From NCBI GenBank assembly GCA_951799425.1, contig OX637391.1, positions 48,145,069-48,209,068 on the forward strand: DNA of 64,000 bases, given 5' to 3'. Under the pieces are notes generated by a model. It was not told where the DNA came from and searched no databases. It saw nothing but the letters and a program-made list of their open reading frames with translations. The position numbers were made by a program, and so were the translations under genes. Positions 10,649 through 51,450 of this stretch are shown here, one piece after another. This DNA comes from Ilex aquifolium. Lineage: Eukaryota; Streptophyta; Magnoliopsida; Aquifoliales; Aquifoliaceae. Numbering within the stretch: the first letter of the stretch is position 1; each line of letters opens with the position of its first letter.

Positions 10649-11331
10649 TTAGTAAAGTTTGAAATTATAAGAAACTTTGAAGGAAACTCTAGGATTTCCA
10701 ATCTTCAACTCTAGGACCTCTTCCCCCGGCTGCGCATTCTCCGCTTGCAACTGAGCATTCTCAGCCTTTAGCTCATCCTTTTCTTTCTCGGCCTCAAAAA
10801 GCTATTTTTTCAGCACCGCCTTCCCTAATGCTAGCTCTAGCTTGCCAGCTGTGAACCTCATCTCACAAGAAGAGGAGTCTGACAGCTGCGGGGACGAAGG
10901 ATCCCATTTTTACTTCCTCCTCCTCCTCAAATAGGTAGCAGTGTCCTCCTTTAGGCCAACTTGAGAAAAGTCTACGTCGACGATGAGGGGAGGAGGAGTC
11001 GGGACAGCAGTAGGAATAATAGTCGAGTTGGGACCAATACCGAACCGAAAAAGGTTCTGAGCTGTAACAAGGGTAGAGAAGGGAGCCACTTCAGCACGAC
11101 AAAGTCGGCAGACCCTGACAATCTCTTCAGGGGTGAATCCGGGACCATCTGCATTAATATAAAAACCGTTAAGCCTCGAAGTGGGAACGCTCTTCATTTT
11201 AAAAGAGCAAAACTGTTGTTTTTGTACCTTTATCTAGGATGTGCCCCTAAGAGCGAGGAACTCGGGAATGCTCAGACTGTGCTTTAGCAGACTCCTAAGA
11301 ATCCCCATAAATGAAGAAGAAACGCTGCAAC
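10649..11331 (-). pseudogene. Tat antisense extra ORF, C-terminal part, with coiled-coil tail
   Basis: Read on the minus strand, one frame runs from an ATG at 11197 to a TAA at 10649-10651 with two in-frame stops, at 10910-10912 and near 10803. The last segment contains KEKDELKAENAQLQAENAQ, an obvious heptad coiled coil. From 11331 to about 11220 on the minus strand there is QRFFFIYGD, a motif of plant retrotransposon extra ORFs, followed by further stops. This is the C-terminal half of a protein whose N-terminal half lies at 24546-25053; element A was inserted between them. Function is unknown; such antisense ORFs downstream of pol are known in the Tat lineage. Confidence 0.65.
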
Positions 11332-11596
11332 TGATTAACCCTAATTAATGCAAAATGTAATTAAATTAAAAGGTCAATTGTGTAATTAAATAAAGTTAAA
11401 CTAGTCAAAATAAATCTAATTAGGGTTAATGTGTGAATTAAGGATAATGCATTGAATGTTGTTCTTTTCAGGTTTTTATGCGTCAAAACGACGGGAGCCA
11501 ATTATCAAAGCATGGAGAGCAACTTATCAAAGCATAGGGTGTAAATTATTAAAGCTCAAAACAAAGGGAGATCAAAGTGTAAATCAAGATCTTCTT

Positions 11597-11777
11597 GATA
11601 TTTGTAATTAAATATCTTTTAGGATAAATATCTTTTAGGATATTTGTAATTAAATATCTTTTAGGATAAATATCTTTTAGGATATTTGTAATTAAATATC
11701 TTTTAGGATAAATATCTTTTAGGATATTTGTAATTAAATATATTTTAGGATAAATATCTTTTAGGATATTTGTAATT
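11597..11777 (+). repeat. 42-bp direct repeats (about four copies) upstream of the TATA box
   Basis: The unit, with words TTTGTAATTAAATATCTTTT and GGATAAATATCTTTT, repeats every 42 bases. Its place immediately upstream of the TATA box in U3 suggests enhancer-like repeats. The same block is at 23025-23205 in the 3' LTR. Confidence 0.85.
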
Positions 11778-11778
11778 T

Positions 11779-11822
11779 GGATGCCTATAAATACCCCCCT
11801 TGGGGGCTTGTAATGGGCATCC
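11779..11822 (+). promoter_or_regulatory. LTR A core promoter: TATA box inside an inverted repeat
   Basis: TATAAATA (11786-11793) is followed by a C6-TT-G5 hairpin and the whole is framed by GGATGCC (11779-11785) and GGCATCC (11816-11822). Transcription of element A is expected to start shortly downstream. The 3' LTR has the same sequence at 23207-23250. Confidence 0.7.
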
Positions 11823-11940
11823 TTCTCTTGTTTCATTTTTCTTGTAAAGAACATTTCTTCCTAGTGGAAAACACTCCAAAGGTCTTGAATCTTTTTCTTG
11901 AATCATCTTTCAAGTATTATTGCTTTATTTACTTTCTTGA

Positions 11941-12235
11941 GTTATTGTTTTCTTTTTATTAGATCTTGGTTGTGAATTAAACACCAAGAAGTTATTGTTT
12001 TCTTTTATGTTTTAGATCTTGGTTGTGAATTAAACACCAAGAAGTTATTGTTTTCTTTTATGTTTTTATTATATCTTGGTTGTGGATTAAACACCAAGAA
12101 GTTGTTGTTTTCTTTTTATTAGATCTTGGTTGTGAATTAAACACCAAGAAGTTGTTGTTTTCTTTTATGTATTATCATCTCTTGGTTGTGGATTAAACAC
12201 CAAGTATTTATTGCTTTCTTTTAATTTAAGTATTG
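11941..12235 (+). repeat. Five 50-57-bp repeats with a 7-bp stem each, in R/U5 of element A
   Basis: CTTGGTTGTG words occur at about 11965, 12018, 12075, 12125 and 12181. In most copies TCTTGGT pairs with ACCAAGA across about 12 bases. The repeats would be transcribed, so the RNA leader can fold as serial hairpins. Confidence 0.8.
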
Positions 12236-13123
12236 TTTTCTTTTACTTCCATTGTTGGAGCTTCCTTCTTCCCCTTAGAGGAGTGAAACTCTTCCACTTT
12301 TCTAGAGCTTTACCAAAGCCGTGAAGGGTGGAACGTGATTCACTCATTCTTTGTCAAAGATCGGCTCCTTGTTTAGCTATTTTACTTTAAAGCATTTCAC
12401 TTTTAGTGCTTGAGCATTTTACTTTGTAACACCTTTTGGGGATGAGTATCATTCATCATTCTAGCTTTACCATAGCTATGAAGGGTGAGTAGTCCTCATT
12501 CACTCTTTGGGAAGAGATGATAGATATGTAAAAGATTAATCCGGACATTATGTTTGTGTATCACCTTTATGCTTAAATGTTCTATACTCCACTTGATTTT
12601 TGGGTGATTGAATGCACCTAGCAAAGTAAAGGTACTTTGTATAATCAACGGATCTTTCTATGATAAATGGATGACTCCTACATGGAAAGATCCATTGATT
12701 CAAGGCAAGTACCCTAACTAACTCTTCATGACAAAATTTCAATGTCCACCATTATTGCACTTCATTCCTATCTTCCGATTAATTTGCCGTTGACACGGGA
12801 GTTAATTGAGTTATAAAGCATAAACATAATGCACCGGATAATCAACTACATATTCTGATTCCCGAACCAAAGAGTGTTTGTTACATTTAATCATCTTATA
12901 TTTTGTCTAGAAAAATACCCATTGGAAAGAATTTTACATTCTATCCAAAACTTCCCACAACTTCAAAATCATAATACTTCCAGTTACAAGTCTTTCTCAC
13001 TATTTACTTCAAAGAACACCAACCATAGTTCCCTGAGGATTCGACTCTGGACTCAAACCAGATTATTACTACAACTTGACCGCCTGCACTTGGGTGTACA
13101 CATTTCGGATCAAGTCAAGTTTT

Positions 13124-13141
13124 TGGCGCCGTTGCGGGGGA
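13124..13141 (+). promoter_or_regulatory. Primer-binding site of element A (tRNA-Asp)
   Basis: TGGCGCCGTTGCGGGGGA matches 17 of 18 bases of the complement of the plant tRNA-Asp 3' end. It lies six bases after the 5' LTR. This primer is characteristic of Athila elements. Confidence 0.9.
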
Positions 13142-13245
13142 ACCATAAAAGGTGCTCTTTTTAGAAAAAGGTGAAAAAAAAAAAAAAAAACCTCTCTTTT
13201 AGTATATATTTTTGCCTTATTGTGAATAATTTTGTTTTTTTTTTT

Positions 13246-16200
13246 ATGACTGACACCAAACGTCTCTTTCAAAATTTGCCTGTTGAATCTTCTGGGTCTG
13301 TAAATCAACTTGAACCACCTTCACCCAAATCAGAAGCCGATTCTTGTAACTTCAATATGGCAAATATTGACAGGCAGGGTGAAGATCATGTGAGAGAGGG
13401 GGAAGTACCCAACATTCGAACATTGCGGGATTACTTACATCCCACAAGGAATAGTGTCCCCTCTTGTTTTGTTTTTCCGGAGAATGCACCCCACTTCACT
13501 GTGAAGCCGGGGACAGTGCATTTATTGCCCGTGTTTCAGGGATTGGATACAGAAAATCCGTATCTGCATATCAAAGACTTCGAAGAAGTGTGTGGAACAT
13601 TTCAAGACAATTCTGAATTGACAAAAATGAAATTGTTTTCTTTCTCTTTGAGGGATAAAGCCAAACAATGGTTACATTCTTTAAAATCTCTTTCAATCCC
13701 TAATTGGCAGGCTCTACAGAATGAATTTTTCAGAAAATTCTTTCCTCTGCACCGCACTAATGCACTCAAAAGACAAATCATGAATTTTTCGATCAAAGAA
13801 GGGGAAACTTTTTATCAAAGCTGGGAGAGATTCAAAGATCTTCTCCAATCTTGTCCACACCATGCTTTTGAAGATTGGACTTTGGTAGGATTTTTCTATG
13901 ACTCCTTGCCCACTAGGTTACGACAGTTTGTCGAAATGATGGCTCAAGGAGAGTTCATGGGAAAAAGTCCGGAGGAGGCATTCAATTTTTTTGATACCAT
14001 ATCTGACAGTTCTCAAATGTGGGACTCAGCCTCTCCTACCACTGTAGAAGCCAAACCACCTACTTTCCAAGGGGGTAAGTATGTCTTGAGAGAAGATGAT
14101 GATCTTAGAGCAAAAATGTCCACTTTGTCTCGAAAGCTTGAAGCTTTAGAGATGAAAAAGGTCCATCAAGTTGATGTTGTCCCTCCCACAGAACAAGTGT
14201 GTGGGATTTGTGCACTAACAGGGCATCCTACTGGGGAATGCCCGACCATTCCGGCATTCAAAGAAGTTTTGTTGGAACAAACAAATGCCATTTCCAATTT
14301 CAACAAGCCTTACTCCAACCCATACTCTGAAACATACAATCCAGGGTGGCGGAACCACCCAAATTTTAGTTGGAGAAACACACAACCAACCCCCATGAAT
14401 CAGCAACAAAGTCCACAACAACCACCTCAAGGACCTCCACAATATCCTCATCAACAAGGGCCACCACAACCACCTCAAGGACCTCCACAATATCCTCCAT
14501 ATCAACCACCACACAAAAGGAACCTTGAAGATACATTGAATCAATTCATGCAAACCCAAATGAGCTATAACAATAGTTCTACTCAGGCTTTTATTGATTT
14601 CAAGGCCCAGACCACACAATCTTTTGAGGATCTCAAAGGCCACATTCAAAAGCTGACCCAGTCCATGAGCACACATGAGAAGGGAAAATTTCCTGCCCAA
14701 CCAAAGCCTCCACAAGGCCAATTTCAGGTGGGAAATCCATCAACTATGGAAACTCCACAAGACCAAGCCAAAACTGTCACCACATTGAGAAGTGGCAAAA
14801 AGATTGACAAGTCCATCAGAAACATGCTGATTCCAGACCCAAAACCAGTCTCAATTCCAGTCAACCCATTAAGTGAGCCAGAACTTGAAAAAAAAAATGA
14901 CTGTGATCCCATGATTGAACAAGAACCAGAGCCATCAAGGGAAGAAGAACCCTCGTATTCTATTCCTGCTCCTTTCCCTCATAGACTCAAGAGCATACAG
15001 AAAGCAAACAATCAGTCTGAAATTTACGAGCTTTTCAAGCAAGTAAAAATCAACATCCCACTTCTGGATGCAATCCAACAGGTTCCAGCTTATGCCAAGT
15101 TTCTAAAAGACTTGTGCACAGTCAAAAGAAGCCAAAATGTTCAAAAAAGAGCCTTCTTCACAGAACAAGCCAGTGCCTTACTTCAACAAAAAATTCCTTC
15201 AAAGTGCGAAGATCCAGGATGCCCCACTGTGTCATGTGTCATTGGAAATTTCAAAATTGAGCAAGCATTGTTAGACCTTGGAGCTAGTGTCAACTTGCTT
15301 CCTTTCTCTGTCTACCAGCAGTTGGGTTTAGGTGAACTGAAACCCACTTGCACCACACTCCAATTGGCAGATAGATCTGTAAAAATTCCTAGGGGTATTG
15401 TTGAAGATGTACTTGTCCAAGTGGATAATTTTGTCTTCCCTGTAGACTTCATTGTTCTAGATACTCATCCAGAAGTTCATTCAGAAACTCCAATTCCTGT
15501 CATTCTTGGTCGACCTTTTCTAGCAACCTCCAATGCACTAATCAATTGCAGGAATGGTATTATGAAATTGACTTTTGGGGATATGACTCTTGAAATGAAC
15601 GTCTTTGACATTGCAAAACACCCAAGAGAGTACGAGGAGGTGGGAGAAATAAATTCCATTGAGTCATTGATACAAGCACATCTGAATGACTCATTCTATG
15701 AGGATCTTAGTGAATCAACTTTGTCAAAATCTGACTCATCTGACTCTCTGGAACAAAACTCCATTGAGTGCCCTACCTTCAATGTGGGGACATGGGCTCC
15801 TAAATTTGAAGAAATTTCATCAAGTGGTACAAAACCACTATCTTCAAGTGACAGGCCACCAAAGCCTGAACTGAAACCGCTCCCATCTGATCTCAAGTAT
15901 GCATTTTTAGGTGAGGATAAATCTTACCCAGTGGTAATTTCTTCAAAAATCACAGACTTGCAAGAAGCTCAATTAATTGAAGTTCTTAAAAGTCATAAAA
16001 GCACCATTGGGTGGACCATCGCTGATTTGAAAGGTATAAGCCCGTTAATTTGTAATCATGCCATATACCTTGAAGAGGACTCAAAACCCTCTCGTCAAAT
16101 GCAGCGACGATTGAATCCTCACATGAAAGAGGTTGTGAGACTGGAAGTGCTCAAACTCCTGGATGCAGGGATAATTTTTCCTATCTCCGATAGCAAATGG

Positions 16201-17175
16201 GTTAGTCCAACCCAAGTTGTACCAAAGAAATCTGGAGTCACAGTAGTCAAAAATGATGCAAATGAACTCGTGCCAACACGAGTCGTCACAGGATGGCGAA
16301 TGTGCATTGACTATCGAAAACTCAATCTGGTGACTAGAAAAGACCATTTTCCTCTTCCCTTCCTTGACCAAGTCCTCGAGAGAATAGCAGGCCATGAATT
16401 TTACTGTTTCCTGGATGGGTATTCCGGATACAATCAAATTGAGATAGCTCTGAATGACCAAGAAAAGACCACATTCACATGTCCATTTGGCACCTTTGCA
16501 TTCAAAAGGATGCCATTCGGACTTTGTAACGCTCCTGCAACATTTCAAAGATGTATGCTGAGCTTGTTCAGTGACATGGTCGAAAATTTTTTGGAAATCT
16601 TCATGGATGATTTCTCGGTATATGGTGACTCATTTGATTTGTGTCTAGCTAACCTAGAAAAAGTTTTGATGAGATGCAAAGAGGCAAATCTGGTGCTTAA
16701 CTGGGAGAAATGTCATTTCATGGTGAATCAAGGCATTGTCTTGGGTCACATTGTGTCGTCTGAAGGCATGAAAGTTGATAAAGCAAAAATTGATTTGATA
16801 AGGAATCTTCCTGCTCCTAGGGTTGTAAAGGATGTTCGATCATTCTTAGGTCATGCAGGATTCTACAGAAGGTTCATAAAAGACTTCAGCACCATAGCAA
16901 AACCTATGTGTCATCTTTTGAGTCAGGATGTCATTTTCGACTGGAATGAAGCGTGCCAAAAATCCTTTGACAAACTCAAAGGCATGTTGATTTCTGCCCC
17001 AATAATGCAACCTCCTGACTGGACTCTACCCTTTGAATTGATGTGTGATGCTAGTGACTATGCTGTAGGTGCTGTTTTGGGACAAAGAAAAGATAAGAAG
17101 CCACATGTGATTTACTATGCAAGTAAAACTTTAAATGATGCCCTTAAACCCAATTTTGGTGATCGAAATTTTTGA
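13246..17175 (+). CDS. Athila gag-protease-reverse transcriptase polyprotein, truncated in RNase H
   Basis: I place the start at the ATG at 13246 (MTDTKRLFQ) because the longer frame upstream begins in a poly-A stretch and would give only a lysine run. Gag carries [19 protein letters not shown] and a capsid-like core, then a C-x2-C-x4-H-x4-C knuckle (about 14198-14242), a proline/glutamine-rich linker and [14 protein letters not shown]. Protease shows [13 protein letters not shown] (about 15265). Reverse transcriptase shows [25 protein letters not shown] and FMDDFSVYG (about 16600). RNase H begins with [15 protein letters not shown] (about 17041) and is cut off after SKTLNDA; ten unrelated-frame codons follow to the stop. 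Compared with element B about 690 bp are missing at this junction, removing most of RNase H and the integrase zinc finger. Gag, protease and RT are open and could still be made. Confidence 0.9.
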
Positions 17176-18157
17176 CTGTTGGGGTATCGATTTTATGGGA
17201 CCATTTCCCCCCTCCTTTGGCTATCTATACATTTTAGTAGCCGTAGACTATGTATCCAAATGGGTTGAAGCAATTCCATGTCGAAATAATGATCATCAAA
17301 CAGTGATCAAGTTTTTAAAAGAAAATATTTTATCTCGGTTTGGAATTCCAAAATCCATTATAAGTGATGGGGGTTCTCATTTTTGCAATCGTCCCTTCTG
17401 AAATTTAATGAAAAAATACTTGATTTTTCACAAAATTGCAACCCCTTATCATCCACAGACCAGTGGACAAGCTGAGTTAGCTAATCGGGAGATCAAATTA
17501 ATTTTGGAAAAAACGGTGAACCCAGATCGCAAAGATTGGTCATTAAGACTAACTGATGCGCTCTGGGCATACCGAACTGCTTTTAAAACAATTTTGGGCA
17601 TGTCTCCCTATCGATTAGTCTATGGAAAGCCATGTCACTTGCCTGTGGAATTGGAACATAGGGCATACTGGGCTATTAAAGCAATGAATTTTGACTTAGA
17701 CAAGGCTGGACTGTCACGGAAGCTTCAGATTAATGAATTGGAGGAATTGAGAAATGAAGCATATGAAAATGCTAAGATTGCAAAAACCAGGATGAAAATT
17801 TTTCATGACAAGAACATAGTGCGAAAATCTTTTGAACCTGATCAAAAGGTTCTACTTTTCAATTCGAGACTTCGCCTATTTCCTGGTAAGTTGAAATCAA
17901 GATGGACTGGACCATACATTGTTAAAAAGGTATTTGAACATGGGGCAGTGGAAGTGGAGAACCCATCAAACGGTAACATTTTTACCGTCAATGGTCAGAG
18001 ATTAAAACCCTTTGTGGAGAATTTTGTCCAAAATGTGGAGACCATTTTTTTAATGGATCCAGAAAGTATCTCCGGATATCACTCCGGAGATTACGCTTGC
18101 CGACACAAAAAAGGGTCGGGTCAGTCAGACACCCGACACGATGGAATGCCTTTATAA
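17138..18157 (+). pseudogene. Integrase core and C-terminus of element A, frameshifted and with a nonsense codon
   Basis: The frame holds the catalytic D of [10 protein letters not shown], the second D of SDGGSHF and the E of [10 protein letters not shown], then a GPY-type C-terminal module with [11 protein letters not shown]. It is out of frame with the upstream polyprotein because of the deletion near 17140 and has a TGA at 17399-17401 just after CNRPF. The HHCC zinc-binding region is absent. The frame closes with TAA inside the TATA-like sequence at 18151-18158, so the end of pol overlaps the proposed start of the downstream transcription unit. Confidence 0.85.
18068..18137 (+). promoter_or_regulatory. 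Two stem-loops at the pol/3'-cassette junction
   Basis: ATCTCCGGA (18068-18076) and TCCGGAGAT (18083-18091) form a perfect 9-bp stem with a 6-base loop. GTCGGGT (18115-18121) and ACCCGAC (18131-18137) form a 7-bp stem with a 9-base loop. Both lie in the last codons of integrase. A role in RNA processing or translation is inference. Confidence 0.55.
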
Positions 18158-18300
18158 GGCTCCCATCGCTTTTTTTTTTTTTTTTCTTTTTTTTCTTTTC
18201 CTCACCACACCTTTACTCTTTTCTTTTCTTTTTCTTCTTCTGCTTCTTCTCTTTTCTTCTTCTTCTCCACTGCATCTGGTCTTCTGTACCACGATCCAAC
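18145..18300 (+). promoter_or_regulatory. Possible internal promoter 1: TATA-like site and CT-rich leader
   Basis: GGAATGCCTTTATAAGGC (18145-18162) contains TTTATAAGG and is followed by more than 100 bases of T/C-rich sequence, as in plant TATA plus Y-patch promoters. The same arrangement, with GGAATGCCTTTATTAGGC, opens the second cassette at 19618, which argues for function of the shared block. No transcript evidence is available here. Confidence 0.45.
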
Positions 18301-18313
18301 CCATAACAGTACC

Positions 18314-18460
18314 ATGTCTGCATTTTTCGATGACCCTATCCTCCTTCTCATGATCTACATTTGTTTGTATTATTTACTTATGGCTGTTCTTCTTCGGGCC
18401 GCACTGATGATCAAGGGTTTTTGTCCCAATGAAAACCCAGACCACCCCAAAGATGCTTAA
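18314..18460 (+). CDS. 48-residue membrane microprotein, cassette 1
   Basis: The short frame begins MSAFFDDPILLLMIYICL. After a short acidic N-terminus it has one long hydrophobic stretch (about residues 8-33), suggesting a single membrane span, then a short polar tail ending NENPDHPKDA. A paralogue of 43 residues sits at the same place in cassette 2 (19786-19917). Both share M-x4-DDP, a Cys-Leu-Tyr-rich span and N-P-D-x-P near the end. It lies between the CT-rich leader and a 3' splice-site-like signal. I do not recognise a family; small single-span proteins also occur in plant RNA virus movement blocks, but no homology is claimed. Conservation between the copies is the main support. Confidence 0.55.
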   Translation: MSAFFDDPILLLMIYICLYYLLMAVLLRAALMIKGFCPNENPDHPKDA

Positions 18461-18465
18461 TCTCT

Positions 18466-18509
18466 GTTTTTTTTTGGTATAGGTCATCGGCGATTGAACA
18501 GATCTCCAC
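18466..18509 (+). promoter_or_regulatory. 3' splice-site-like signal, cassette 1
   Basis: A T-rich run ends in GGTATAG at 18482 and is followed by GTCATCGGCGATTGAACAG. The second cassette has TTTTGTTTGTAG ending at 19946 followed by GTTTCGGCAGATGAACAG. The conserved boundary suggests a spliced subgenomic RNA joined just upstream of the large cassette ORF; this is inference. Confidence 0.45.
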
Positions 18510-18552
18510 AATTAACTGCGTATTCAAGCTCTACAAACCGAAAAACTCGAAA

Positions 18553-18589
18553 CATTGGGGACAATGTTCAGTCTAGGTTGGGGGGTGAG
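18553..18589 (+). promoter_or_regulatory. Internal polypurine-tract-like motif of element A
   Basis: CATTGGGGACAATGTTCAG followed by GGTTGGGGGGTGAG matches motifs after pol in element B (47760-47796) and element C (62315-62352). It resembles the 3' polypurine tract at 22746-22759. Direct imperfect repeats containing GTTGATCTGC follow at 18590-18640. Confidence 0.6.
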
Positions 18590-18745
18590 ATCTACAGTTT
18601 ACAATAGTTGATCTGCAGTTTACAGTAGTTGATCTGCGCAGGTTGAACCCGTAAAATTTTTTGTAAATTTTTTTTGTTTTTATTGTTGTATCTGTTCATA
18701 TTATGTACCTTGTATTAATGATAATATCTGTGGGTCAGTTTTGAT

Positions 18746-18766
18746 CGTCTTTGTGACTGGAAGACG
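18746..18766 (+). promoter_or_regulatory. Stem-loop 15 bases upstream of the cassette 1 ORF
   Basis: CGTCTT (18746-18751) pairs with AAGACG (18761-18766) across TGTGACTGG. The same loop with a shorter stem is at 20418-20436 before the cassette 2 ORF. Its place next to both start codons suggests a translational or RNA-binding role. Confidence 0.5.
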
Positions 18767-18781
18767 TAAAAAAACCAGATA

Positions 18782-19213
18782 ATGGGTCATAGAGTATCAA
18801 TCATGGATGTAAATCTTTTTTGGTTTAGTCTAGGAGTCCTACGTACTTTTCCATCTGATGTACATACCATGATCATGAGAAAAGCAAGATTAGTAAGGAA
18901 GGCTGAAATCAAAGAAAAACAAGTGAAACCCCTCTGTGGCCGAAGCAGTTATTCTAAACGTCGTCGTGCTACACGACTTGGTGCCTGTAAACAGTGTGGC
19001 AGATACTTTCATGAGAAAAGATACAACAAATGTTCTGAACCAATTTCCGGTCGCGCAACCGATCGATTAAACTGGATAAAACATGGGCTGAGTAAGGATT
19101 ACCCTGATACGCCATGCTATTCCGGTACTGTGCTTAACCGATTTGTGAGAGAGGAAGTTGGGAGAGTTACTAGTTGTCCATTTTACACAGATACGGAGGG
19201 GGAATCGGATTGA
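18782..19213 (+). CDS. Cysteine-rich basic protein resembling plant betaflexivirus nucleic-acid-binding proteins, copy 1 (143 aa)
   Basis: The ORF starts MGHRVSIMDVNLFWFSLGVL. A second in-frame Met at codon 8 aligns with the Met of copy 2 and could be the true start. Residues 12-40 include FPSDVHTMIMRKAR. Residues 52-66 hold GRSSYSKRRRATRLG, an arginine-rich stretch that could be a nuclear-localisation or RNA-binding signal. It runs into C-x2-C-x4-H-x6-C (CKQCGRYFHEKRYNKC), a probable zinc-binding finger unlike the gag knuckle. The C-terminal third has SGRATDRLNWI, HGLSKDYPDTP and an acidic end. The GRS-Y-RRA-LG-C-x2-C order matches what I know of cysteine-rich nucleic-acid-binding proteins of carlaviruses and relatives, some of which suppress RNA silencing. 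That relationship is inferred from the pattern, not from a search. It occupies the envelope position of an Athila element. Confidence 0.7.
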   Translation: MGHRVSIMDVNLFWFSLGVLRTFPSDVHTMIMRKARLVRKAEIKEKQVKPLCGRSSYSKRRRATRLGACKQCGRYFHEKRYNKCSEPISGRATDRLNWIKHGLSKDYPDTPCYSGTVLNRFVREEVGRVTSCPFYTDTEGESD

Positions 19214-19582
19214 CCTCTGTGGAAAAGTGTACTGAGGTTGGGAATGAGAGCTGAAGGTCCGAGTCTGTAAATTTTATTTTATTTTATTTTTTTATGTTCT
19301 GTACAAACTCTTTTGCATATCACTTTCTTTTGTTGTATAATTTTGTTGTTCCTAGTTTCAGATATTGGTGCATGAGTCAAAGCTCAAGTGCGAGGTGTTC
19401 TCTTACCCTACTCATTTTTATTACTATGCACCATTATTGCGCCTGCTGCTATTATTGCGCCTGCCGACACTGCCGAAAGTAAAGTTAGAAAAAAAAAAGG
19501 GGGGGGGGGCCTCCCACTGCCTTTCTTCTTCTTTTTTTTTCTTTTCTTCTGCCTGCCAGCTCCTGCCGACACTTTCTTATAT
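19214..19582 (+). other. Untranslated part of cassette 1, with a block shared with element B
   Basis: The stretch has TTTTA repeats, then a 24-base block at 19389-19412 identical to 47693-47716 of element B, then low-complexity A, G10 and CT runs. No gene is seen. Confidence 0.6.
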
Positions 19583-19605
19583 TAAAAAAAAAAAAAAAAA
19601 AAAAA
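19583..19605 (+). repeat. Poly(A) tract at the boundary of cassettes 1 and 2
   Basis: About 23 consecutive A residues lie just before the second GGAATGCCTTTAT promoter-like block. Further A runs occur at 20321-20343 and 21291-21318. They could be relics of polyadenylated RNA copied back into the element. Confidence 0.6.
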
Positions 19606-19617
19606 AACAAAAATCTG

Positions 19618-19785
19618 AGGAATGCCTTTATTAGGCCTTCCACCTTTTTCTTTTTCTTCCACCATCACCGGTGTTGGTTCCCCCCTTTTCTCTTTCCCTT
19701 ATCTTCTTCTCTTTCTTTTTCTTCTCTTCTTCTTCGTCGTCGTTCTTTCTGTTCTCTGTAAAAACAACTCACCCCCTGTAAATCC
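19618..19785 (+). promoter_or_regulatory. Possible internal promoter 2: TATA-like site and CT-rich leader
   Basis: GGAATGCCTTTATTAGGC opens the second cassette, with TTTATTAGG at 19627-19635 and a long CT-rich leader up to the microprotein ATG. It parallels 18145-18300. Confidence 0.4.
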
Positions 19786-19917
19786 ATGACCATATACGCC
19801 GACGATCCAGTCTTTTGTTTAATAATTTGTCTTATATGTTTGTATGTGTACCTGGGTGCTCTTTGTGTTCTCACACTTAGGATGAGGAGTTTCCAGAGAA
19901 ACCCAGATATTCCTTGA
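19786..19917 (+). CDS. 43-residue membrane microprotein, cassette 2
   Basis: The frame begins MTIYADDPVFCLIICLIC. Hydrophobic residues from about 9 to 30 form one likely membrane span rich in Cys, Leu and Tyr, followed by a basic stretch LRMRSFQRNPDIP. It is the paralogue of the 48-residue ORF at 18314-18460: DDP, CLY in the span and NPD-x-P are shared, and the distance to the splice-site-like signal downstream is comparable. The frame is too short to be convincing alone; the paired conservation supports it. Function is unknown. Confidence 0.5.
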   Translation: MTIYADDPVFCLIICLICLYVYLGALCVLTLRMRSFQRNPDIP

Positions 19918-19931
19918 GTTGAGTAATTGTT

Positions 19932-19975
19932 GTATTTTGTTTGTAGGTTTCGGCAGATGAACAGATCTGTACCTT
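19932..19975 (+). promoter_or_regulatory. 3' splice-site-like signal, cassette 2
   Basis: TATTTTGTTTGTAG ends at 19946 and is followed by GTTTCGGCAGATGAACAGAT, matching cassette 1 at 18483 after a similar T-rich tract. Confidence 0.45.
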
Positions 19976-20417
19976 ACAACCTTATCTCCACTAGCCCACT
20001 AGTGCTAGTGTTGTAAGTATTGCTTGTTTGTAATTTCATTTATATATATATTTGAAATTTGATATCTACAGCTTGTGATTCTCATGGCTATTTGTCTTTA
20101 TAAGATTCCTTGTGAATTTGCTATGCCCTCCAATGACTATGTTGTAATTGCTGTTACAGTAAGATCTGATAATTTGCCAAATAATCCTCCTCAATCCTAT
20201 GTATTCTGGGTTTATTCCTTCTTCGTTAATTTGTTTGTTTCATCCTAAATCTTCTTCCTTCCGCTTGTATTTTGGTATACTTTCTCTAGTTTCGTATTTG
20301 TAATTTTAGTTTTAGATCTGAAAAAAAAAAAAAAAAAAAAAAATTATTTTTTTTGGATCGCGTTTTTTTTAGTATTTGTACCTGTATTTCATGATCACAT
20401 CGGATGCAGCTTCAACT

Positions 20418-20436
20418 GTCTTTGTGACTGGCAGAC
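20418..20436 (+). promoter_or_regulatory. Stem-loop upstream of the cassette 2 ORF
   Basis: GTCT and AGAC enclose TTGTGACTGGC, the same loop as at 18746-18766. The ATG follows at 20455. The two upstream regions also share AACCAGATA. Confidence 0.45.
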
Positions 20437-20454
20437 GTTAAAGAACCAGATAGA

Positions 20455-20880
20455 ATGTCTTTAGTCTTAGCAAGCATGGATCCTAAACTTTTTTGGTTTA
20501 GTCTAGGAGTTTTACGCATTTTCCCATCTGATGTGCATGCTGTGATAATGAGAAAAGCAAGGGATGTGAGAAAAATTGAGATCCGAGAGAAACAACAACA
20601 ACCATTGTGTGGCAGAAGCAATTTTGCTAAACATCGTCGTTCCAAACGACTGGGTGCTTGTTACCATTGTGGCAGGATATTTCATATGAAAAAACATAAT
20701 CAGTGTTCTGAACCAATTTCGGGTCGTGCAACCGATCGATTAAACTGGATAGTGTATGGGCTGAGTAAGGATTATCCTGACACACCATCTTATGCCAGTC
20801 CGGGACTTACAAGTTATGTGCGACAAGAAGTTGGAAGGGTCACTGATAATGACATAGATCCAAGCGATGACTCGGATTAG
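20455..20880 (+). CDS. Cysteine-rich basic protein resembling plant betaflexivirus nucleic-acid-binding proteins, copy 2 (141 aa)
   Basis: The frame starts MSLVLASMDPKLFWFSLGVL and aligns without a gap to copy 1 (18782-19213) over most of its length; I count roughly two thirds identical residues. Conserved blocks are LFWFSLGVLR-x-FPSDVH, IMRKAR, PLCGRS, RLGAC-x2-CGR-x-FH, CSEPISGRATDRLNWI, GLSKDYPDTP and VR-x-EVGRVT. The finger is C-x2-C-x4-H-x6-C (CYHCGRIFHMKKHNQC). The tail is acidic (DPSDDSD). Differences cluster in the N-terminal seven residues, the centre of the basic region and the C-terminus. Both copies remain open in an element whose pol is broken, which hints at selection on these proteins. 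A silencing-suppressor or RNA-binding role is inference from the family resemblance. Confidence 0.7.
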   Translation: MSLVLASMDPKLFWFSLGVLRIFPSDVHAVIMRKARDVRKIEIREKQQQPLCGRSNFAKHRRSKRLGACYHCGRIFHMKKHNQCSEPISGRATDRLNWIVYGLSKDYPDTPSYASPGLTSYVRQEVGRVTDNDIDPSDDSD

Positions 20881-20993
20881 ATTTTGACTATAAAAACAAA
20901 GCTGTGGAAAAATGTGTTTTGGAATGAAGGTTAAGGGTCTGAACTCTTTTGTAAAATATTTTTGTACAAAGTCTGGTTGTTGAAATAAAAATA

Positions 20994-21255
20994 TGGGCCG
21001 AGTAAGGAACGTCCCGAACTACCAACTAACAGTGTAGGTAGGGATTTGATCCTGAGACGCCATAAATTTCCAAGTTCAATTTGTGCATTTTATCTTCTTT
21101 CAATTCTCATAGATAAATGAGTATGTGGGCGGAGTAAGGAATGTCCTAAAATGCCAACCTGTAGTGTGGGTAGGGACTTATCCTGAGACGCCATAGTTTT
21201 TCAAGTTTAATTGGTGCATCTAGTCTTCTTTCAATTTTCATAGATAAATGAGTAT
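20994..21255 (+). repeat. Tandem ~130-bp repeat containing decayed cassette-ORF sequence
   Basis: Two copies start TGGGCCGAGTAAGGAACGTC and TGGGCGGAGTAAGGAATGTC and both end near AGATAAATGAGTATGT. The first bases match the codons for GLSKD in the two cassette ORFs (TGGGCTGAGTAAGGATTA), and TCCTGAGACGCCAT resembles the following CCTGATACGCCAT. They may be remnants of further ORF copies. Confidence 0.55.
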
Positions 21256-21318
21256 GTTTATAATTTTGAATTTTATTTTTCTTGTTTTCTAAAAAAAAAC
21301 AAAAAAAAAAAAAAAAAA

Positions 21319-22745
21319 CCACTTCCTTGAAAAATGGTATTTTCTCTATGCTTAAATGTCAAATGTATATTGCTATTTGTTATTCTTAAGGTACAGAATG
21401 ACCAGACTCAAAAATAGAATCGGTATATAACCGACATTCCATGAAAAACCTGACATTACCAGTAGAGATGATAAAGAATACCATGGTAAGTTTTGAGCCT
21501 TACCATACTTTTGAGAGATAATTAACATTTATTCAAGTAAGGTCTTTCATTCTCTATTTTTGAATAATCTCATTAAATTTGCTTTGATTGACGCAACTAA
21601 GGTAATCTGTTGACATATCCCCAAGAAATCTGTTCATACGACACATACATGTTCACATACTTGAGAAAGGATTTTAGGCCATCTTTGATTTGATATTGAG
21701 CCTTAGCCATTTTTTCTGCAAAATTATTTCCCTAGTCAGCCATGTTTGAGCCCTCAATGTATGATTTCTTCTTTGATAAACCCAAATTTTTACCAAGCCA
21801 CAAGAAAACATACTGGACACACCATTGCTATCTAATTTTCTTGCACACTCTTATTAATCAATATGACACAGAAATGCAAAGAAATGGGAAAACTCTGGAG
21901 ATTACTTTTCGATGATAAGGAGAATCAATGGGAACAAATGAAAAAAAAGAAAAAAAAGAAATCATTTCTGGGCAAAATGTCGAAAAGCTAGAAAGAAGTG
22001 TGCTACATTACAGAATGAAAAGATAGCTTTTGAAAACCTCTGACGTCATTTCATTAGCCACTGACCTCTGGCCACGCTACAACCTATGAAAAGCCCTAAT
22101 TGATCTCAAGTCTGTTACATGTGTGTGTTGTTAATCAAAATTGGGGTATGGTAAATAGTATTTCTTTAAATTGCATCAATATTCTTTCATGAGATTATGC
22201 CAAACATGATTAGTTTGTTTCCGTAAACTTCACTTCCTTCCTAATTGTGCATGTGATTTTTCGATTGGCCACCTTCTGATCACATGCCCCGTGAGAGACA
22301 AGTCACTATAATCGGAGTGAATTTTTGCTGAGAGCATTCTACGAGAGGTTTGTGAAATCGAAGCTATCCATGGAAGGTAGTAAAGTGGAGTGTTTGTTAT
22401 ATAACAATTCTTGTTGCTAGAATGATCATTCTTACTACATAGGGAATTTCAAATACCAATATAACAAGTGTTTATTTTTGCATATATTACGTACCAATGA
22501 CATAGAAGTGTTTTATTTTGCTAAAAAAAAAATTCGGCGTCTCAGCTATCATGGTGCTAATGCATATACACATTTTTTCAAATGGAGTTTGTAGGTAGCT
22601 TCACTGAAAACCTTCACGAGACAAAACTCGTCCACTAGGAATCACCTAGGGGTTTAACGGCTTATTGCATATGCTAAATGCAATCGTGTTATCTACGAAA
22701 GTGATTTTGTTATGCTGTTATTTATTACTAGGGACTAGTAATGTT
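21319..22745 (+). other. 3' noncoding scaffold of element A
   Basis: No gene is seen. The segment around 21655-21750 aligns with 48280-48390 of element B (GGATTTTAGGCCATCTTTGA versus GATCTTAGGCCATCATTGA), so this is ordinary Athila 3' sequence retained beside the cassettes. Confidence 0.6.
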
Positions 22746-22759
22746 TAGGTTGGGGGGTG
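22746..22759 (+). promoter_or_regulatory. 3' polypurine tract of element A
   Basis: AGGTTGGGGGGTG directly precedes the TG of the 3' LTR and would prime plus-strand DNA synthesis. Confidence 0.85.
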
Positions 22760-24545
22760 TGATTAACCCTAATTAATGCAAAATGTAATTAAATTAAAAG
22801 GTCAATTGTGTAATTAAATAAAGTTAAACTAGTCAAAATAAATCTAATTAGGGTTAATGTGTGAATTAAGGATAATGCATTGAATGTTGTTCTTTTCAGG
22901 TTTTTATGCGTCAAAACGACGGGAGCCAATTATCAAAGCATGGAGAGCAACTTATCAAAGCATAGGGTGTAAATTATTAAAGCTCAAAACAAAGGGAGAT
23001 CAAAGTGTAAATCAAGATCTTCTTGATATTTGTAATTAAATATCTTTTAGGATAAATATCTTTTAGGATATTTGTAATTAAATATCTTTTAGGATAAATA
23101 TCTTTTAGGATATTTGTAATTAAATATCTTTTAGGATAAATATCTTTTAGGATATTTGTAATTAAATATATTTTAGGATAAATATCTTTTAGGATATTTG
23201 TAATTTGGATGCCTATAAATACCCCCCTTGGGGGCTTGTAATGGGCATCCTTCTCTTGTTTCATTTTTCTTGTAAAGAACATTTCTTCCTAGTGGAAAAC
23301 ACTCCAAAGGTCTTGAATCTTTTTCTTGAATCATCTTTCAAGTATTATTGCTTTATTTACTTTCTTGAGTTATTGTTTTCTTTTTATTAGATCTTGGTTG
23401 TGAATTAAACACCAAGAAGTTATTGTTTTCTTTTATGTTTTAGATCTTGGTTGTGAATTAAACACCAAGAAGTTATTGTTTTCTTTTATGTTTTTATTAT
23501 ATCTTGGTTGTGGATTAAACACCAAGAAGTTGTTGTTTTCTTTTTATTAGATCTTGGTTGTGAATTAAACACCAAGAAGTTGTTGTTTTCTTTTATGTAT
23601 TATCATCTCTTGGTTGTGGATTAAACACCAAGTATTTATTGCTTTCTTTTAATTTAAGTATTGTTTTCTTTTACTTCCATTGTTGGAGCTTCCTTCTTCC
23701 CCTTAGAGGAGTGAAACTCTTCCACTTTTCTAGAGCTTTACCAAAGCCGTGAAGGGTGGAACGTGATTCACTCATTCTTTGTCGAAGATCGGCTCCTTGT
23801 TTAGCTATTTTACTTTAAAGCATTTCACTTTTAGTGCTTGAGCATTTTACTTTGTAACACCTTTTGGGGATGAGTATCATTCATCATTCTAGCTTTACCA
23901 TAGCTATGAAGGGTGAGTAGTCCTCATTCACTCTTTGGGAAGAGATGATAGATATGTAAAAGATTAATCCGGACATTATGTTTGTGTATCACCTTTATGC
24001 TTAAATGTTCTATACTCCACTTGATTTTTGGGTGATTGAATGCACCTAGCAAAGTAAAGGTACTTTGTATAATCAACGGATCTTTCTATGATAAATGGAT
24101 GACTCCTACATGGAAAGATCCATTGATTCAAGGCAAGTACCCTAACTAACTCTTCATGACAAAATTTCAATGTCCACCATTATTGCACTTCATTCCTATC
24201 TTCCGATTAATTTGCCGTTGACACGGGAGTTAATTGAGTTATAAAGCATAAACATAATGCACCGGATAATCAACTACATATTCTGATTCCCGAACCAAAG
24301 AGTGTTTGTTACATTTAATCATCTTATATTTTGTCTAGAAAAATACCCATTGGAAAGAATTTTACATTCTATCCAAAACTTCCCACAACTTCAAAATCAT
24401 AATACTTCCAGTTACAAGTCTTTCTCACTATTTACTTCAAAGAACACCAACCATAGTTCCCTGAGGATTCGACTCTGGACTCAAACCAGATTATTACTAC
24501 AACTTGACCGCCTGCACTTGGGTGTACACATTTCGGATCAAGTCA
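22760..24545 (+). repeat. 3' LTR of element A
   Basis: It is the 1786-bp copy of 11332-13117 with one difference noticed at 23784. It is followed by the target duplication GCAAC. Confidence 0.95.
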
Positions 24546-25053
24546 GCAACCACCCCTCGGGGGAGCCAGGTGCATTGATGACCAGCGTAGGAACGTGACA
24601 CCTCCACATAAACCGAGAATGATAGGGAGGGAAGTCAAAATCAAAGTCAAAGAAGTAAAGAAACTTAGAAACAATGAGGAAACAATCATGGCCTTGCTTG
24701 CCCCAGAAAATGAAGAAGCTTACAAGGGTGCCCCACCCCTCTGGCGAAAGGCGTGAAGGGCGAAGCAAAAAAAAGGCAAGAATTTGTCCTATGGTTGGAT
24801 GGATGGGCAAACGAAGTTCCATCTCAAAGGCACCCTAAAAAATGCTCACCTCCCTCCGAAGAAGGAGGTTGCAAGGTTCGTCGGGGGTAGGAACTCAAAT
24901 GGTCAAACCTGGGGGAAAAAGGTATCGCCTCCTAATCTCCTCTGCTTCGGGTGCAATAATAACAGCATGAAACATAAACACAACATAGTCTGGGTCATCA
25001 ATCATGATTCGAGCGCGTTGCCTAAACAAATAAGTAGAGGAAGAAGCCATGAA
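24546..25053 (-). pseudogene. Tat antisense extra ORF, N-terminal part
   Basis: On the minus strand the frame begins near 25053 with MASSSTYLFRQRARIMIDDP, is interrupted by at least two stops or shifts, and continues as MELRLPIHPTIGQILAFFLL, then PEGWGTLVSFFIFWGKQGHD, to GSPEGW at the insertion point. It joins in frame with QRFFFIYGD at 11331 across element A. The LPIHP, W-x-FFI-W and GW-x-RFFF spacing fits the domain found in many plant retrotransposon extra ORFs. Its role in the Tat life cycle is unknown. Confidence 0.65.
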
Positions 25054-39676: not shown

Positions 39677-42600
39677 AGGCAAGTGTCAAACCAAGGAGGT
39701 GATTTCCGAACAACGGAGGTAAGTCCCGTGATCTTCATCACGGGCTGAGGTACGTTGTCTCGTGTACATATTCTTGTTTGTGTATAATTTCATTTGTATA
39801 TATCTTGTTGCATGTGGGAAAGGGACGACTATCACCGATTAGTTAGACAAACCTTAGGCCCCAACATGAACATTGACCAAGACCCACCCGAGGATGCGGG
39901 TGACAATTTTGAAAATGTGGATGTCAACCCAAACATGCAAGGGGGTGGAAACGTTGATAATGTAGGTGCAAATCCAAATGCTCAAAGGGGTGGGGGATTA
40001 CCCGAACCTAGGATGCCTAACCCACGAATGCAATATCCCCCTCCCGATGCTTTTGATAATATGGATGCTAACCCGAATATGCAAAGGGGTGGGGGATTGC
40101 AACCACCTAGGATACCCAACCCACGAGTGCAATTTCCCCCACCTAGGAATGAAGGGAACATCCAACTTGACCCTCCGGCAAGGACAATGCGGGAGTTCCT
40201 TCAACCAACCCGTAGCACCACACCATCATGCATCCTTCTTCTCGTCTAAGCTCATCTCTTTGTAATCAAACCATGGATGTTGCAACTACTCCCTAAATTT
40301 CACGGGGTTGAGAATGAAAACCCGTATAATCATATAAGGTCTTATGAGGAAATGGTTGCAACCTTTATCCCAAATTACAACATGGAAGAGATAGCGAGAA
40401 TGAAATTGTTCCCTTTTTCCTTGGATGGTAAAGCAAGAATTTGGCTTGATTCCATGGGGCCTCGGACCATGTTATCTTGGGACCATATAGTTTCATTTTT
40501 TTTTAAAAAAAAATTTCCGGTTCATAGAACCACTTCTTTGAAAAAGGAAATTCAAATTTTTTCTGAAAAACCCAATGAGCAATTCTATCAATGTTGGGAT
40601 CGCTACAAAGACTTGATTCAATCCATACCACATCATGGTTTTAAATCGTGGCAATTGGTGAGTTTCTTCTACGAAGGAATCACACCAAACCATAGACAAT
40701 TCATTGACATGATGTGCAATGGTGAGTTCTTGAACAAAGACCCTGATGAGGCCCTCGACTACTTTGGTACCTTGGCTGAAAATGCACAATCTTGGGATGT
40801 TAGGGATCCAAATGATGTACCTAGGACATTGCCAGTTAGTAGTCAATCACAAAGGGGAGGGATATGTGACTTGAAAGACCGGGAGGATCTACTTTCACAA
40901 ATTTCCAAATTGTCTAGGAAAGTAGATAGCCTTGAGGTGGAAAGGAGACGAGAGGTGTCTCATGTGTCAAGAACCGAGGAGGCTTGTTCTATTTGTGGTG
41001 GTGTCGAGCATTCCACATCGGAGTGTCCGAGCATTCCGGCACTTAAAGAAGCATACCATGAACAAGTCAATGCCTTCAACCAACCAAGGCAATCATTTCC
41101 TTCAAATTCCAACACTTACAATTCGGGGTATCGTGATCACCCTAATTTTAGTTGGAGGAATGAGAACCCCATCCCCTATGGTTCAAACACATACACATCT
41201 CCTACACCTCCAAAGCAAGGTCAGTACCAATCTCAATATCAAGGCCAAGGGCAAGCTTCTAGCTCCCAATACCCACGGTCCAATCCGCAAGGGTACCAAT
41301 CCAATCCTCTCCCACAAAATTTCTCTCAAAGTCCAAATCCACAAAATTTCTCCCAACAAGGCCCATCTAGTTCTTCCAGCTACCAACCACCTCATAAAAG
41401 GAGTTTAGAAGACGTGGTCCACGCCTTCATTCAAAGCCAAACCACCTTCAATAAAGACATTTCGGCTCAACTCACAAAGATCACCAATCACATAGGCTTG
41501 TCTCAACAAGAGAAGGGGAAATTCCCCTCTCAACTCCAACAAAATCCCAAGGGCCAAAATGTGATTGAATTAGTTGAGCCCACCCAAGAGAGTTGTGAGC
41601 ACCTCAAGGCGGTCACCACTCTTCGTAGTGGCAAACAAATAGAAAAGACCATAGTGCCAAAGGTTCCACCCAAGGCACCATTGCCAATAGAAGAGTCCAT
41701 CGAGGGTGAGTCCATTGAGGGTGAGGCCAAGGAACGTGTGGCCGAAAAAGGTGAAATGAGTAAAGACAAAGAAAATGAGCAAATTGAAAATGAACATGTG
41801 ATTGATGATAGCTTGTGTATTCCTCCTATGCCTGCCCCTTTCCCCCATCGTTTGAAGTCACCTGTCAAGGTGGCTAATTATTCTGATATTTTAGACATGT
41901 TTAAGCAGGTAAAAATCAATATCCCGCTCCTCGATGCCATCAAGCAAATACCGTCATGTACCAAAATTTTGAAAGATCTATGCACGGTAAAGAGGAGGCT
42001 AAATGTCCGGAATAAGGCATTCTTGACAGAACAAGTGAGCTCCATTTTGAGGACCAACACTCCTCCCAAATTCAAAGATCCCGGTTGTCCAACAATTGCC
42101 ATCACTATAGGAAATTGCCGAGTTGAACAAGCATTGCTTGATCTGGGAGCAAGTGTCAATCTCCTTCCCTACTCCGTGTATCAACAACTCAAGCTTGAGG
42201 AGTTGAAACCTACTTCAATTACACTTCAACTCGCGGATCATAGCATCCGCACACCAAGGGGAGTAGTGGAAGATGTGTTGGTTCAAGTTGATAAGTTTTA
42301 TTTTCCAGTCGATTTTATTGTATTGGACACTCATCCTGTTGCTAATCTTAGTTCCCAAATCCCCGTGATACTTGGGCGACCTTTCCTTGCTACATCTAAT
42401 GCAGTGATAAATTGCAGGAATGGTCTGATGAAATTGGCGTTCGGGAACATGACACTGGAACTTAATGCCTTCAATTTGGCAAAGCAACCAGGGGATGACG
42501 AGGAGGCAAATGAGATCAATAGAATTTACACTTTGATTGAGGAGCACTTGGAGTTAGAATGGATGTTGAAACTCAAGGAGGAAGAATTGGTTGAATTGGA

Positions 42601-47166: not shown

Positions 47167-47546
47167 GTGAGCAGAGAAAGTTGGAACTGAATGAATTGGA
47201 AGAGATCCGAAGAGATGCATATGAGAGTTCCAAAATTTCAAAAGAACGGGCTAAAGTTTTTCATGACAATTCCATCACACGGAAATCATTTGAACCCAGA
47301 CAAAAAGTACTCTTGTATAATTCTCGTCTCTCCGTGTTCCAAGGAAAACTAAGATCCCGTTGGGATGGCCCCTATTTTGTCGAGGTGGCCTACCCCAACG
47401 GAGCGGTAGATATCACAAACCCTAAAGATGGCCAAACATTCAAGGTCATTGGCCAAAGACTCAAGCCATTCTTTGAGGGTTTTGAAGGACAGGTGGAGGA
47501 GGAGGATTTAATTGACCCGGTGTATCCGGAATTGATGGAGGGTTAG

Positions 47547-49585: not shown

Positions 49586-49740
49586 CAGAAACAGGGAAAC
49601 AGTACCGGTACTATACCGTACCGGTACGCCTAAGCTACTGGTGTTCAAAGTACCGGTACGCAGTACCGGTGCGGTAAAGTACCGGTACTCAGTACCGGTG
49701 CGGTAAAGTACCGGTACTCAGTACCGGTACTGTCTACTGA
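49586..49740 (+). repeat. GTACCGGTAC module upstream of the envelope-position ORF
   Basis: Six perfect GTACCGGTAC copies and two GTACCGGTGC are present, with the same spacer (AAGCTACTGGTGTTC) and right flank (TGTCTACTGA) as the LTR modules of element B. It lies about 160 bases before the proposed start codon at 49898, like a promoter-proximal element. Confidence 0.9.
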
Positions 49741-49897
49741 AACAAAAGGGCTTTTTAATTTAAATCCCTCGGTGACCCTTTCATTTCCCCACCTAAATTG
49801 TGCAACCCACACCCGAAACCCTAGTTGCCAAAACCCCCAAAGTCCCTCAAATTTCTCCAATCCTCCTGAACTTTCAAATTGCTCCAAGGAATCCCCA

Positions 49898-51129: not shown

Positions 51130-51160
<31 letters not shown>

Positions 51161-51222
51161 AGGGTGATGATGAGCAGATTGTGCTAGTGTTGTGCTTTTG
51201 TTTAGGTTTGGAATTCATGTAG
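49898..51222 (+). pseudogene. Envelope-position ORF of element B (Athila second ORF type), probably spliced, one nonsense codon
   Basis: A likely first exon (49898-49915, MARHLE) ends at GAG/GTATGT and a GGCAG acceptor at 50001 would remove 86 bases and keep frame. The second exon begins ARTKRAGTSP, is rich in basic residues, has a TAG at 50131-50133, then is open for 363 codons to 51222. It includes EFYQSLKVVV, NVRGKGIAVTPDVIATLLGD and VYGLLNKLLHYNLFPK, a pattern of the second ORF of plant Athila-type elements and related plant transposon proteins. The C-terminal third is low-complexity with an acidic run of Asp/Glu from a GAT repeat (51106-51175). No signal peptide or membrane segment is obvious. 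Its function is unknown; element A has the two-cassette block in this position instead. Confidence 0.65.
49916..50001 (+). other. Predicted 86-nt intron in the envelope-position ORF
   Basis: The donor GAG/GTATGT and the acceptor CTCGGCAG/GC fit plant consensus, the size is near the usual minimum for plants, and removal joins two in-frame parts. It is unproven. Confidence 0.4.
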
Positions 51223-51436
51223 TTGGGATGGGAACGTAGGCCATTTTGTACTCCAACTTCGTGCACATGAATGAAAAACCACAGTTTGTTCAATCTAATC
51301 CATGTTTATTTTGAAATTGCATTATGATTTTCACTTTGTGATTGATTGGATGAATGGTTAATAATGGATTGTGTGCATGTTGTGCCCATTGTTTTAATTT
51401 GGAGAAATACTCTTTTGCTAAGGGACTAGCAAAACC

Positions 51437-51450
51437 TAAGTTGGGGGGTG
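51437..51450 (+). promoter_or_regulatory. 3' polypurine tract of element B
   Basis: AAGTTGGGGGGTG directly precedes the TG of the 3' LTR. Confidence 0.85.

Follow-up and report, generated by a model that had tools for sequence, protein, structure and literature searches.

How does a plant LTR retrotransposon come to carry, downstream of pol, two copies of a gene resembling those of RNA viruses, and what would the encoded proteins do for it? The question is raised by a locus of Ilex aquifolium (GCA_951799425.1, contig OX637391.1, positions 48,145,069-48,209,068; this stretch of 64,000 nt is referred to as the window). A sequence-only reading of the locus had proposed that an Athila element acquired a cysteine-rich protein (CRP) gene of the type found in carlaviruses and related viruses, placed it in the envelope position, perhaps as a means of resisting host silencing, and duplicated it.

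Host element and the CRP genes

A Ty3/gypsy LTR retrotransposon spans positions 11332-24545 of the window, with the following features.

11327..11331, no strand: target-site duplication GCAAC, left copy
11332..13117, + strand: 5' LTR, 1786 bp, TG...CA, one mismatch to the 3' LTR
13118..13144, + strand: primer binding site region TTTGGCGCCGTTGC, directly after the 5' LTR
13171..17175, + strand: gag-PR-RT open frame that stops within RNase H (Pfam Retrotrans_gag, Asp_protease_2, RVT_1 and partial RNase H)
17176..18157, + strand: integrase remnant in a different frame with one stop, from comparison with L063
18314..18460, + strand: putative hydrophobic 48-aa ORF upstream of CRP1
18747..18781, + strand: conserved leader motif upstream of CRP1
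18782..19213, + strand: CRP1, 143 aa, Arg-rich C2HC zinc-finger protein, Viral_NABP/Carla_C4 homologue
19786..19917, + strand: putative hydrophobic 43-aa ORF upstream of CRP2
20418..20453, + strand: conserved leader motif upstream of CRP2
20455..20880, + strand: CRP2, 141 aa, second copy, Arg-rich C2HC type
22748..22759, + strand: polypurine tract GGTTGGGGGGTG, preceding the 3' LTR
22760..24545, + strand: 3' LTR, from the LTR comparison
24546..24550, no strand: target-site duplication GCAAC, right copy

The Ty3/gypsy features found were LTRs with TG...CA ends, a 5-bp target-site duplication, a primer binding site, a polypurine tract and the order gag-PR-RT-RH-IN, with complete RNase H and integrase present in relatives such as L063 and not in the window copy. 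The LTRs differ at one of 1786 bases, with GCAAC on both sides, and the element is a young, recent insertion. It is not intact: about 0.7 kb of RNase H/integrase is missing compared with L063, in which the RT-RNase H-integrase frame runs open for 1081 aa. An integrase search of the host genome gave open frames of about 1869-1871 aa for many of the best 150 of 9959 candidates, and a value of 251 for the window element. Because its RNase H and integrase are truncated, this copy may be mobilised by other elements. We take the element to be Athila-type, assuming that the primer binding site is of the tRNA-Asp/Athila type and that PF20167, found as an env-like ORF in relatives of the CRP3 lineage (see below), marks the Athila env position. 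No PF20167 match was obtained after pol in the window element itself (18158-22759, E <= 10). The window also contains a second, related element with a PF20167 ORF at 50152-51222, and tblastn with CRP found no further CRP copies in the window beyond CRP1 and CRP2, the second element included.

CRP1 and CRP2 are open, in sense orientation, between the end of the integrase piece (18157) and the start of the 3' LTR (22760). Their description in the sequence-only reading proved accurate: two ORFs of 143 and 141 aa, about two thirds identical (66% measured), each with FPSDVH, a GRS-x-Y/F segment running into a basic stretch, and C-x2-C-x4-H-x6-C. Its claim of a duplication within one element holds as well, with both copies open. 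In an alignment of 24 proteins, C72 and C84 do not vary, and C69 and H77 are almost invariant. Chance ORFs are excluded by matches above cut-off to two viral Pfam families and by the frame being open in the best 150 CRP2 copies. Genes in the two hydrophobic mini-ORFs could not be established (dN/dS 0.47, interval 0.22-1.33), and Rfam on 18140-21050 gave eight matches, all under the gathering score and all within A/T-rich 19467-19653.

The leader motif GTCTTTGTGACTGGCAGACGTTAAAGAACCAGATAG sits immediately upstream of CRP1 and CRP2; in front of most CRP3 genes, roughly 45-75 nt separate its end from the start codon. Of 44 CRP upstream regions, 41 show the motif, while L038, L039 and L049 have lost it by deletion, and 26 of its 41 columns are invariant across 18 distinct versions, which were collected by similarity to the motif. 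The leader is nearly constant between lineages that have diverged to dS 0.84-1.44 at synonymous positions. An RNA pseudoknot (CGTCT/AGACG with CTGG/CCAG) was considered and is possible, with 95.1% of cells pairing and zero covariation; since nothing covaries, conservation may be of the sequence, at the DNA or the RNA level.

Relationship to betaflexivirus proteins

The suggested likeness to carlavirus-related cysteine-rich proteins, for which a Pfam profile search had been proposed, was borne out, as both proteins exceeded the gathering cut-offs of two viral families. Viral_NABP (PF05515, cut-off 23) matched CRP1 with 42.2 bits (E 1.2e-10) and CRP2 with 48.4 bits (E 1.5e-12), and Carla_C4 (PF01623, cut-off 20.9) matched them with 26.4 bits (E 6.9e-6) and 24.2 bits (E 3.3e-5). 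The Viral_NABP profile was covered in part, at positions 109-221 and 100-210 of 227 for CRP1 and CRP2, respectively; Grapevine virus A (GVA) p10 matched positions 147-209 with E 4.7e-7, compared to 1.5e-12 for CRP2. The family feature of an Arg-rich stretch followed by C/H zinc-binding residues is present in both proteins, which are encoded by an LTR retrotransposon and not by a betaflexivirus genome.

When 5.8 billion proteins were searched with a single sequence, 10 of the 13 candidates proved to be relatives, each carrying both Pfam domains, and protein relatives occurred in environmental contigs as well. An alignment search gave 27 matches, Grapevine virus A (1.4e-7) and Carrot vitivirus 1 (8.8e-3) among them, and a second round gave 58, including Grapevine virus A (5.6e-23) and Peach mosaic virus (1.5e-8), with second-round E-values benefiting from the presence of two viral rows in that query. 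Further second-round matches were Grapevine viruses H and M, Mint virus 2, Tomato vitivirus 1 and Allamanda chlorotic virus B, with Elderberry carlavirus A (1.1e-3) and Rose virus B (6.7e-3) on the carlavirus side, an insignificant match to Potato virus H (0.29), and a Striga hermonthica 'Unknown protein' at 3.4e-8. UniRef labels some of these viral proteins 'RNA silencing suppressor'.

Profile-profile comparison provided a cleaner test, as the transposon and viral sides were kept unmixed. The transposon-type proteins alone (A1) matched the vitiviruses alone at E 1.9e-16, and the carlavirus and Peach mosaic virus proteins at E 8.7e-16 over 121 columns, each value coming from a single comparison. 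In pairwise alignment, CRP2 and GVA p10 were 43% identical over 63 residues. Searches of NCBIfam and PDB returned only insignificant matches, chiefly to ribosomal zinc-ribbon proteins, and scans of viral contigs with CRP2, A1, P0054, P0016 and the 18-base leader core gave no match.

The vitivirus NABPs (PF05515), including GVA p10, have in common with the CRPs the GRSTFAKRRR-type Arg-rich motif, the C-C-H-C finger and a downstream DRL..W/F(I/V)..G...(D/E)TP block. However, they are encoded by RNA viruses, the aligned members lack the N-terminal FWFSL...FPSDVH segment of the CRPs, and their finger spacing is C-x-C. The 121-column match to the carlavirus and Peach mosaic virus proteins (PF01623) takes in the N-terminal part, but these proteins are 23% identical to the transposon-type proteins, have another finger spacing and are likewise encoded by RNA viruses.

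Copies, lineages and selection

The host genome searched comprised 800 Mb in 103 contigs. A search with CRP2 identified at least 150 copies; the best 150 of 4093 candidates were 99-100% identical, and none of these 150 had an internal stop. A search with P0011 revealed a third lineage, CRP3, with 73-86% identity to P0011 among the best 150 of 4067 candidates. Some of these 150 rows had internal stops, most of the listed stops falling at the match end, and two of the 30 CRP3 loci fetched (L041 and L042) were broken at codon 31. P0016-type proteins were not seen in the host genome, the best 150 P0016 matches being only 44-47% identical.

Both scored sets, CRP2 and CRP3, favour intact copies because they were ranked by similarity to intact proteins. 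A less biased sample was therefore chosen by a 361 bp non-coding flank (40 copies of 1727 candidates); all 40 were 100% identical across the flank, and all are young. A full-length CRP2 frame was present in 36 of the 40, a shorter open frame in two (both on C4, 131 aa) and a frameshift in two. Of this sample, 29 copies coincided, when matched by eye, with stop-free rows of the protein searches (25 from the CRP2 search and four from the P0016 search, the latter including the two frames of 131 aa), and the remaining 11, which were read, included nine intact and two frameshifted frames. For three copies chosen by integrase, the 1-kb stretches read comprised one with an intact CRP2, one stop-free over the first 84 residues, where the stretch ends, and one without a CRP2 match. 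With a frameshift in two of the 40 flank-chosen copies, frames are not mostly broken in this sample, broken ORFs in most relatives having been named by the sequence-only reading as part of what would refute it.

CRP1 and CRP2 occur together in L061-L063, and one CRP copy was found in the CRP3 loci. The upstream 1.5 kb of the 30 CRP3 loci contained integrase in 11, gag/protease without RT or integrase in 12 and neither in seven. In the downstream 1.5 kb, 19 loci matched the 379-residue PF20167 ORF over at least 343 residues (in two loci as two pieces), seven matched only both of its ends and four had no match. CRP3 together with the PF20167 ORF, and with no gag/pol match within 1.5 kb, was seen in six of the 30. 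These flanks indicate that CRP3 occurs where pol or the env-like ORF has been lost, in loci that were chosen for having CRP3. As CRP3 lies beside the env-like PF20167 ORF in many loci, the CRP gene does not simply replace env. The proposed duplicated gene in the envelope position thus describes the window element, where both copies lie after pol and before the LTR, but not the CRP3 loci, which are single-copy and often carry the PF20167 ORF alongside.

For CRP1 and CRP2, dN/dS was computed from the shared MD start with bootstrap intervals. Codon comparisons show purifying selection between copies and lineages. The comparison of the two window copies, suggested by the sequence-only reading, gave a ratio far below 1 (dS 0.84, dN 0.22, dN/dS 0.26, interval 0.15-0.40). 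The same ratio of 0.26 was obtained for CRP2 against CRP3 of L033 (dS 1.44, interval 0.13-0.43) and for CRP1 against CRP3 (dS 1.24, interval 0.15-0.43), and two CRP3 pairs gave 0.16 and 0.19. CRP2 of L078 compared to the window CRP2 gave 0.43 (0.22-0.83). For pN/pS, 83 frames were reduced to 48 by dropping partial CRP1 frames at locus ends, L041 and L042 (fewer than 125 codons) and duplicates. Within lineages, pN/pS was 0.38 among 20 distinct CRP2 frames and 0.25 among 24 distinct CRP3 frames. Four distinct CRP1 copies, with very few changes, had a pN of 0.019 above a pS of 0.006 (pN/pS 3.1), and these counts give no support for current constraint on CRP1.

Function, origin and precedents

This Ty3/gypsy family carries a post-pol gene homologous to betaflexivirus NABPs, and we consider it probable that its product would bind RNA, blunt silencing and aid multiplication of the element. 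RNA binding would be mediated by the Arg-rich patch together with the C2HC finger. With less certainty, and by analogy with GVA p10, it may shield the element RNA from siRNA-directed silencing or suppress silencing in the cell, and such protection could, again less certainly, help the family multiply. The gene would presumably have originated from viral RNA captured by reverse transcription. According to passages of PMC9104223, GVA p10 is an RNA-binding protein that relies on its Arg-rich motif for binding, and it acts as a silencing suppressor in mesophyll cells of N. benthamiana.

The same protein features could serve the element in other ways. The CRP might be an RNA-binding packaging or chaperone factor, that is, a second nucleocapsid-like protein and not a silencing suppressor, and we give this a modest chance. 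An Arg-rich stretch with a zinc finger suits nucleic acid chaperones, and gag/protease without an RT or integrase match lies in the upstream 1.5 kb of 12 of the 30 CRP3 loci; however, gag already bears a CCHC knuckle (a 14-residue motif, read by eye), and the six loci that combine CRP3 with the PF20167 ORF have no gag/pol match within 1.5 kb. Some carlavirus cysteine-rich proteins act as nuclear activators or reprogrammers, and the basic patch adjoining the zinc finger, as well as the 121-column match to the carlavirus and Peach mosaic virus set, would fit a nuclear transcription activator or host-cell reprogrammer that raises element transcription. Such a role appears rather unlikely, as it is a vitivirus-type protein that gives the best viral match. 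The copy number could by itself have arisen by hitchhiking with an active element, and pN/pS exceeds 1 among the four CRP1 copies, but a neutral passenger is highly improbable given the dN/dS of 0.26, whose upper bounds lie at 0.40-0.43 across three comparisons between lineages, and two duplicates that are both open at dS 0.84.

The direction of transfer was addressed with a protein tree of 42 rows, in whose 140-column alignment long branches meet. The transposon-type proteins formed one group (94/95), the vitiviruses with one environmental row another (100/98), and the Striga-type and P0016-type proteins groups of their own. The tree did not order the transposon, Striga-type, environmental and viral clades. 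AU tests rejected none of four groupings: transposon with P0016-type and Striga (p 0.218), transposon with vitiviruses (0.495), transposon with Striga (0.476) and all viruses together (0.455); the number of origins was not discriminated. Environmental proteins from unidentified plants fall in both the CRP1 group (99/99) and the CRP2 group (91/77), which places the duplication before the diversification within each group. Of the proposal that a transposon acquired a viral gene, the homology to viral proteins therefore stands, while the direction is settled by neither the tree nor the AU tests. The reverse path, with betaflexivirus cysteine-rich genes descending from plant retrotransposons, seems doubtful to us. 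The transposon-type proteins are longer than those of vitiviruses, their Viral_NABP match exceeds that of GVA p10 (1.5e-12 compared to 4.7e-7), and, the clade order being open, the AU test does not reject a tree that keeps the viruses together (p 0.455). On the other hand, the viral relatives span several virus groups, CRP was not found in the second window element with its PF20167 ORF, and the alignment is short (140 columns) with long branches. It is an improbable, if broader, idea that a silencing-suppressor gene common to RNA viruses and plant LTR retrotransposons is carried, amplified and diversified by the latter, and that these were a source or exchange partner for betaflexivirus CRPs, not mere recipients.

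The reading of the CRPs as a virus-type accessory gene, which we favour, has partial precedents. The Athila-type elements described in the consulted part of PMC7264820 resemble the present element in structure and in having a sense accessory ORF after pol, and resemble the CRP3 relatives in the PF20167 ORF; they are described there with env-like ORFs, and that part mentions no virus-type nucleic-acid-binding gene. Insect retrotransposons with RNA-virus helicase domains likewise bear an RNA-virus gene, for which weak silencing suppression is reported (sections of PMC6338049), but gene, host kingdom and context differ, the CRPs being stand-alone, small, duplicated ORFs of a plant LTR element. 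An orchid Ty3/gypsy element with an AlkB RNA demethylase also gained and retained an RNA-acting accessory gene, and no viral origin is traced for it in the main-text section of PMC9289625, unlike the virus-type CRPs. Across 121 angiosperm genomes, the same section counts 15 non-canonical domains in LTR elements, and neither NABP nor Carla_C4 is among the nine that it names. The excerpt of PMC3136472 gives only one plus-strand RNA virus sequence, betaflexivirus replicase-like and from cucumber, and that of PMC11963269 mentions no virus-type nucleic-acid-binding gene in retrotransposons. Open-access PMC full text, outside which most subscription literature lies, yielded no description of a CRP-bearing retrotransposon, and a wider search of it with the Pfam names and accessions gave only two glyoxalase titles. 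That retrotransposons can carry accessory genes, in insects even RNA-virus helicases, is known already, and a virus-type NABP in a plant LTR element appears to be new within the portions of the literature covered.

How high-copy plant retrotransposons survive under RNA silencing is an open question on which the CRPs bear. To our knowledge, few elements are said to encode their own silencing suppressor. Here, three gene lineages within a single retrotransposon group encode a virus-type candidate suppressor, which is duplicated in one of them. Given the three lineages, the purifying selection and at least 150 near-identical CRP2 copies, the idea is directly testable by standard reporter assays. 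The CRPs also bear on the origin of the betaflexivirus cysteine-rich genes.

Extent of the duplication and the upstream mini-ORFs

The duplicated unit (18140-19300 versus 19610-20980) seems larger than the Arg-rich zinc-finger gene alone, of which CRP1 and CRP2 are the two copies. By eye, GAATGCCTTTAT and pyrimidine runs are common to both halves, and each also contains splice-acceptor-like stretches 5' of CAGATCT. Upstream of each CRP gene lies a hydrophobic mini-ORF with a DDP... motif:

18314-18460, hydrophobic mini-ORF of 48 aa, upstream of CRP1
19786-19917, hydrophobic mini-ORF of 43 aa, upstream of CRP2

These mini-ORFs are present again in many further copies and are shortened in a few. 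Because the interval around their dN/dS of 0.47 spans 0.22-1.33, their standing as putative coding genes is unproven, and T-rich sequence could mimic the hydrophobic appearance.

Repeats and polypurine tracts in the two elements

Both LTRs of the main element hold short tandem duplications (11583-12226 and 23011-23654). Inspection by eye also placed an internal polypurine tract copy (AGGTTGGGGGGTG), similar to the 3' tract, 3' of pol at ~18575-18587, and a comparable polypurine-like stretch at ~47780-47795 in the second element:

40172-51450, second related element, integrase interrupted
50152-51222, its PF20167 (env-like) ORF

A search of the window for CRP genes found none in this second element.

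CRP3 loci and Striga-type proteins

Six host-genome loci (L034-L037, L048 and L054) carry CRP3, the third lineage of the gene, and the PF20167 ORF, but nothing in the 1.5 kb upstream matches gag or pol; these loci are perhaps deletion derivatives. Among related proteins, P0047 and P0051-P0054 form a distinct Striga-type clade, within which P0054 (178 aa) has an extended N-terminus. This clade is kin to the same viral families as the CRP proteins, those of the Viral_NABP/Carla_C4 type.
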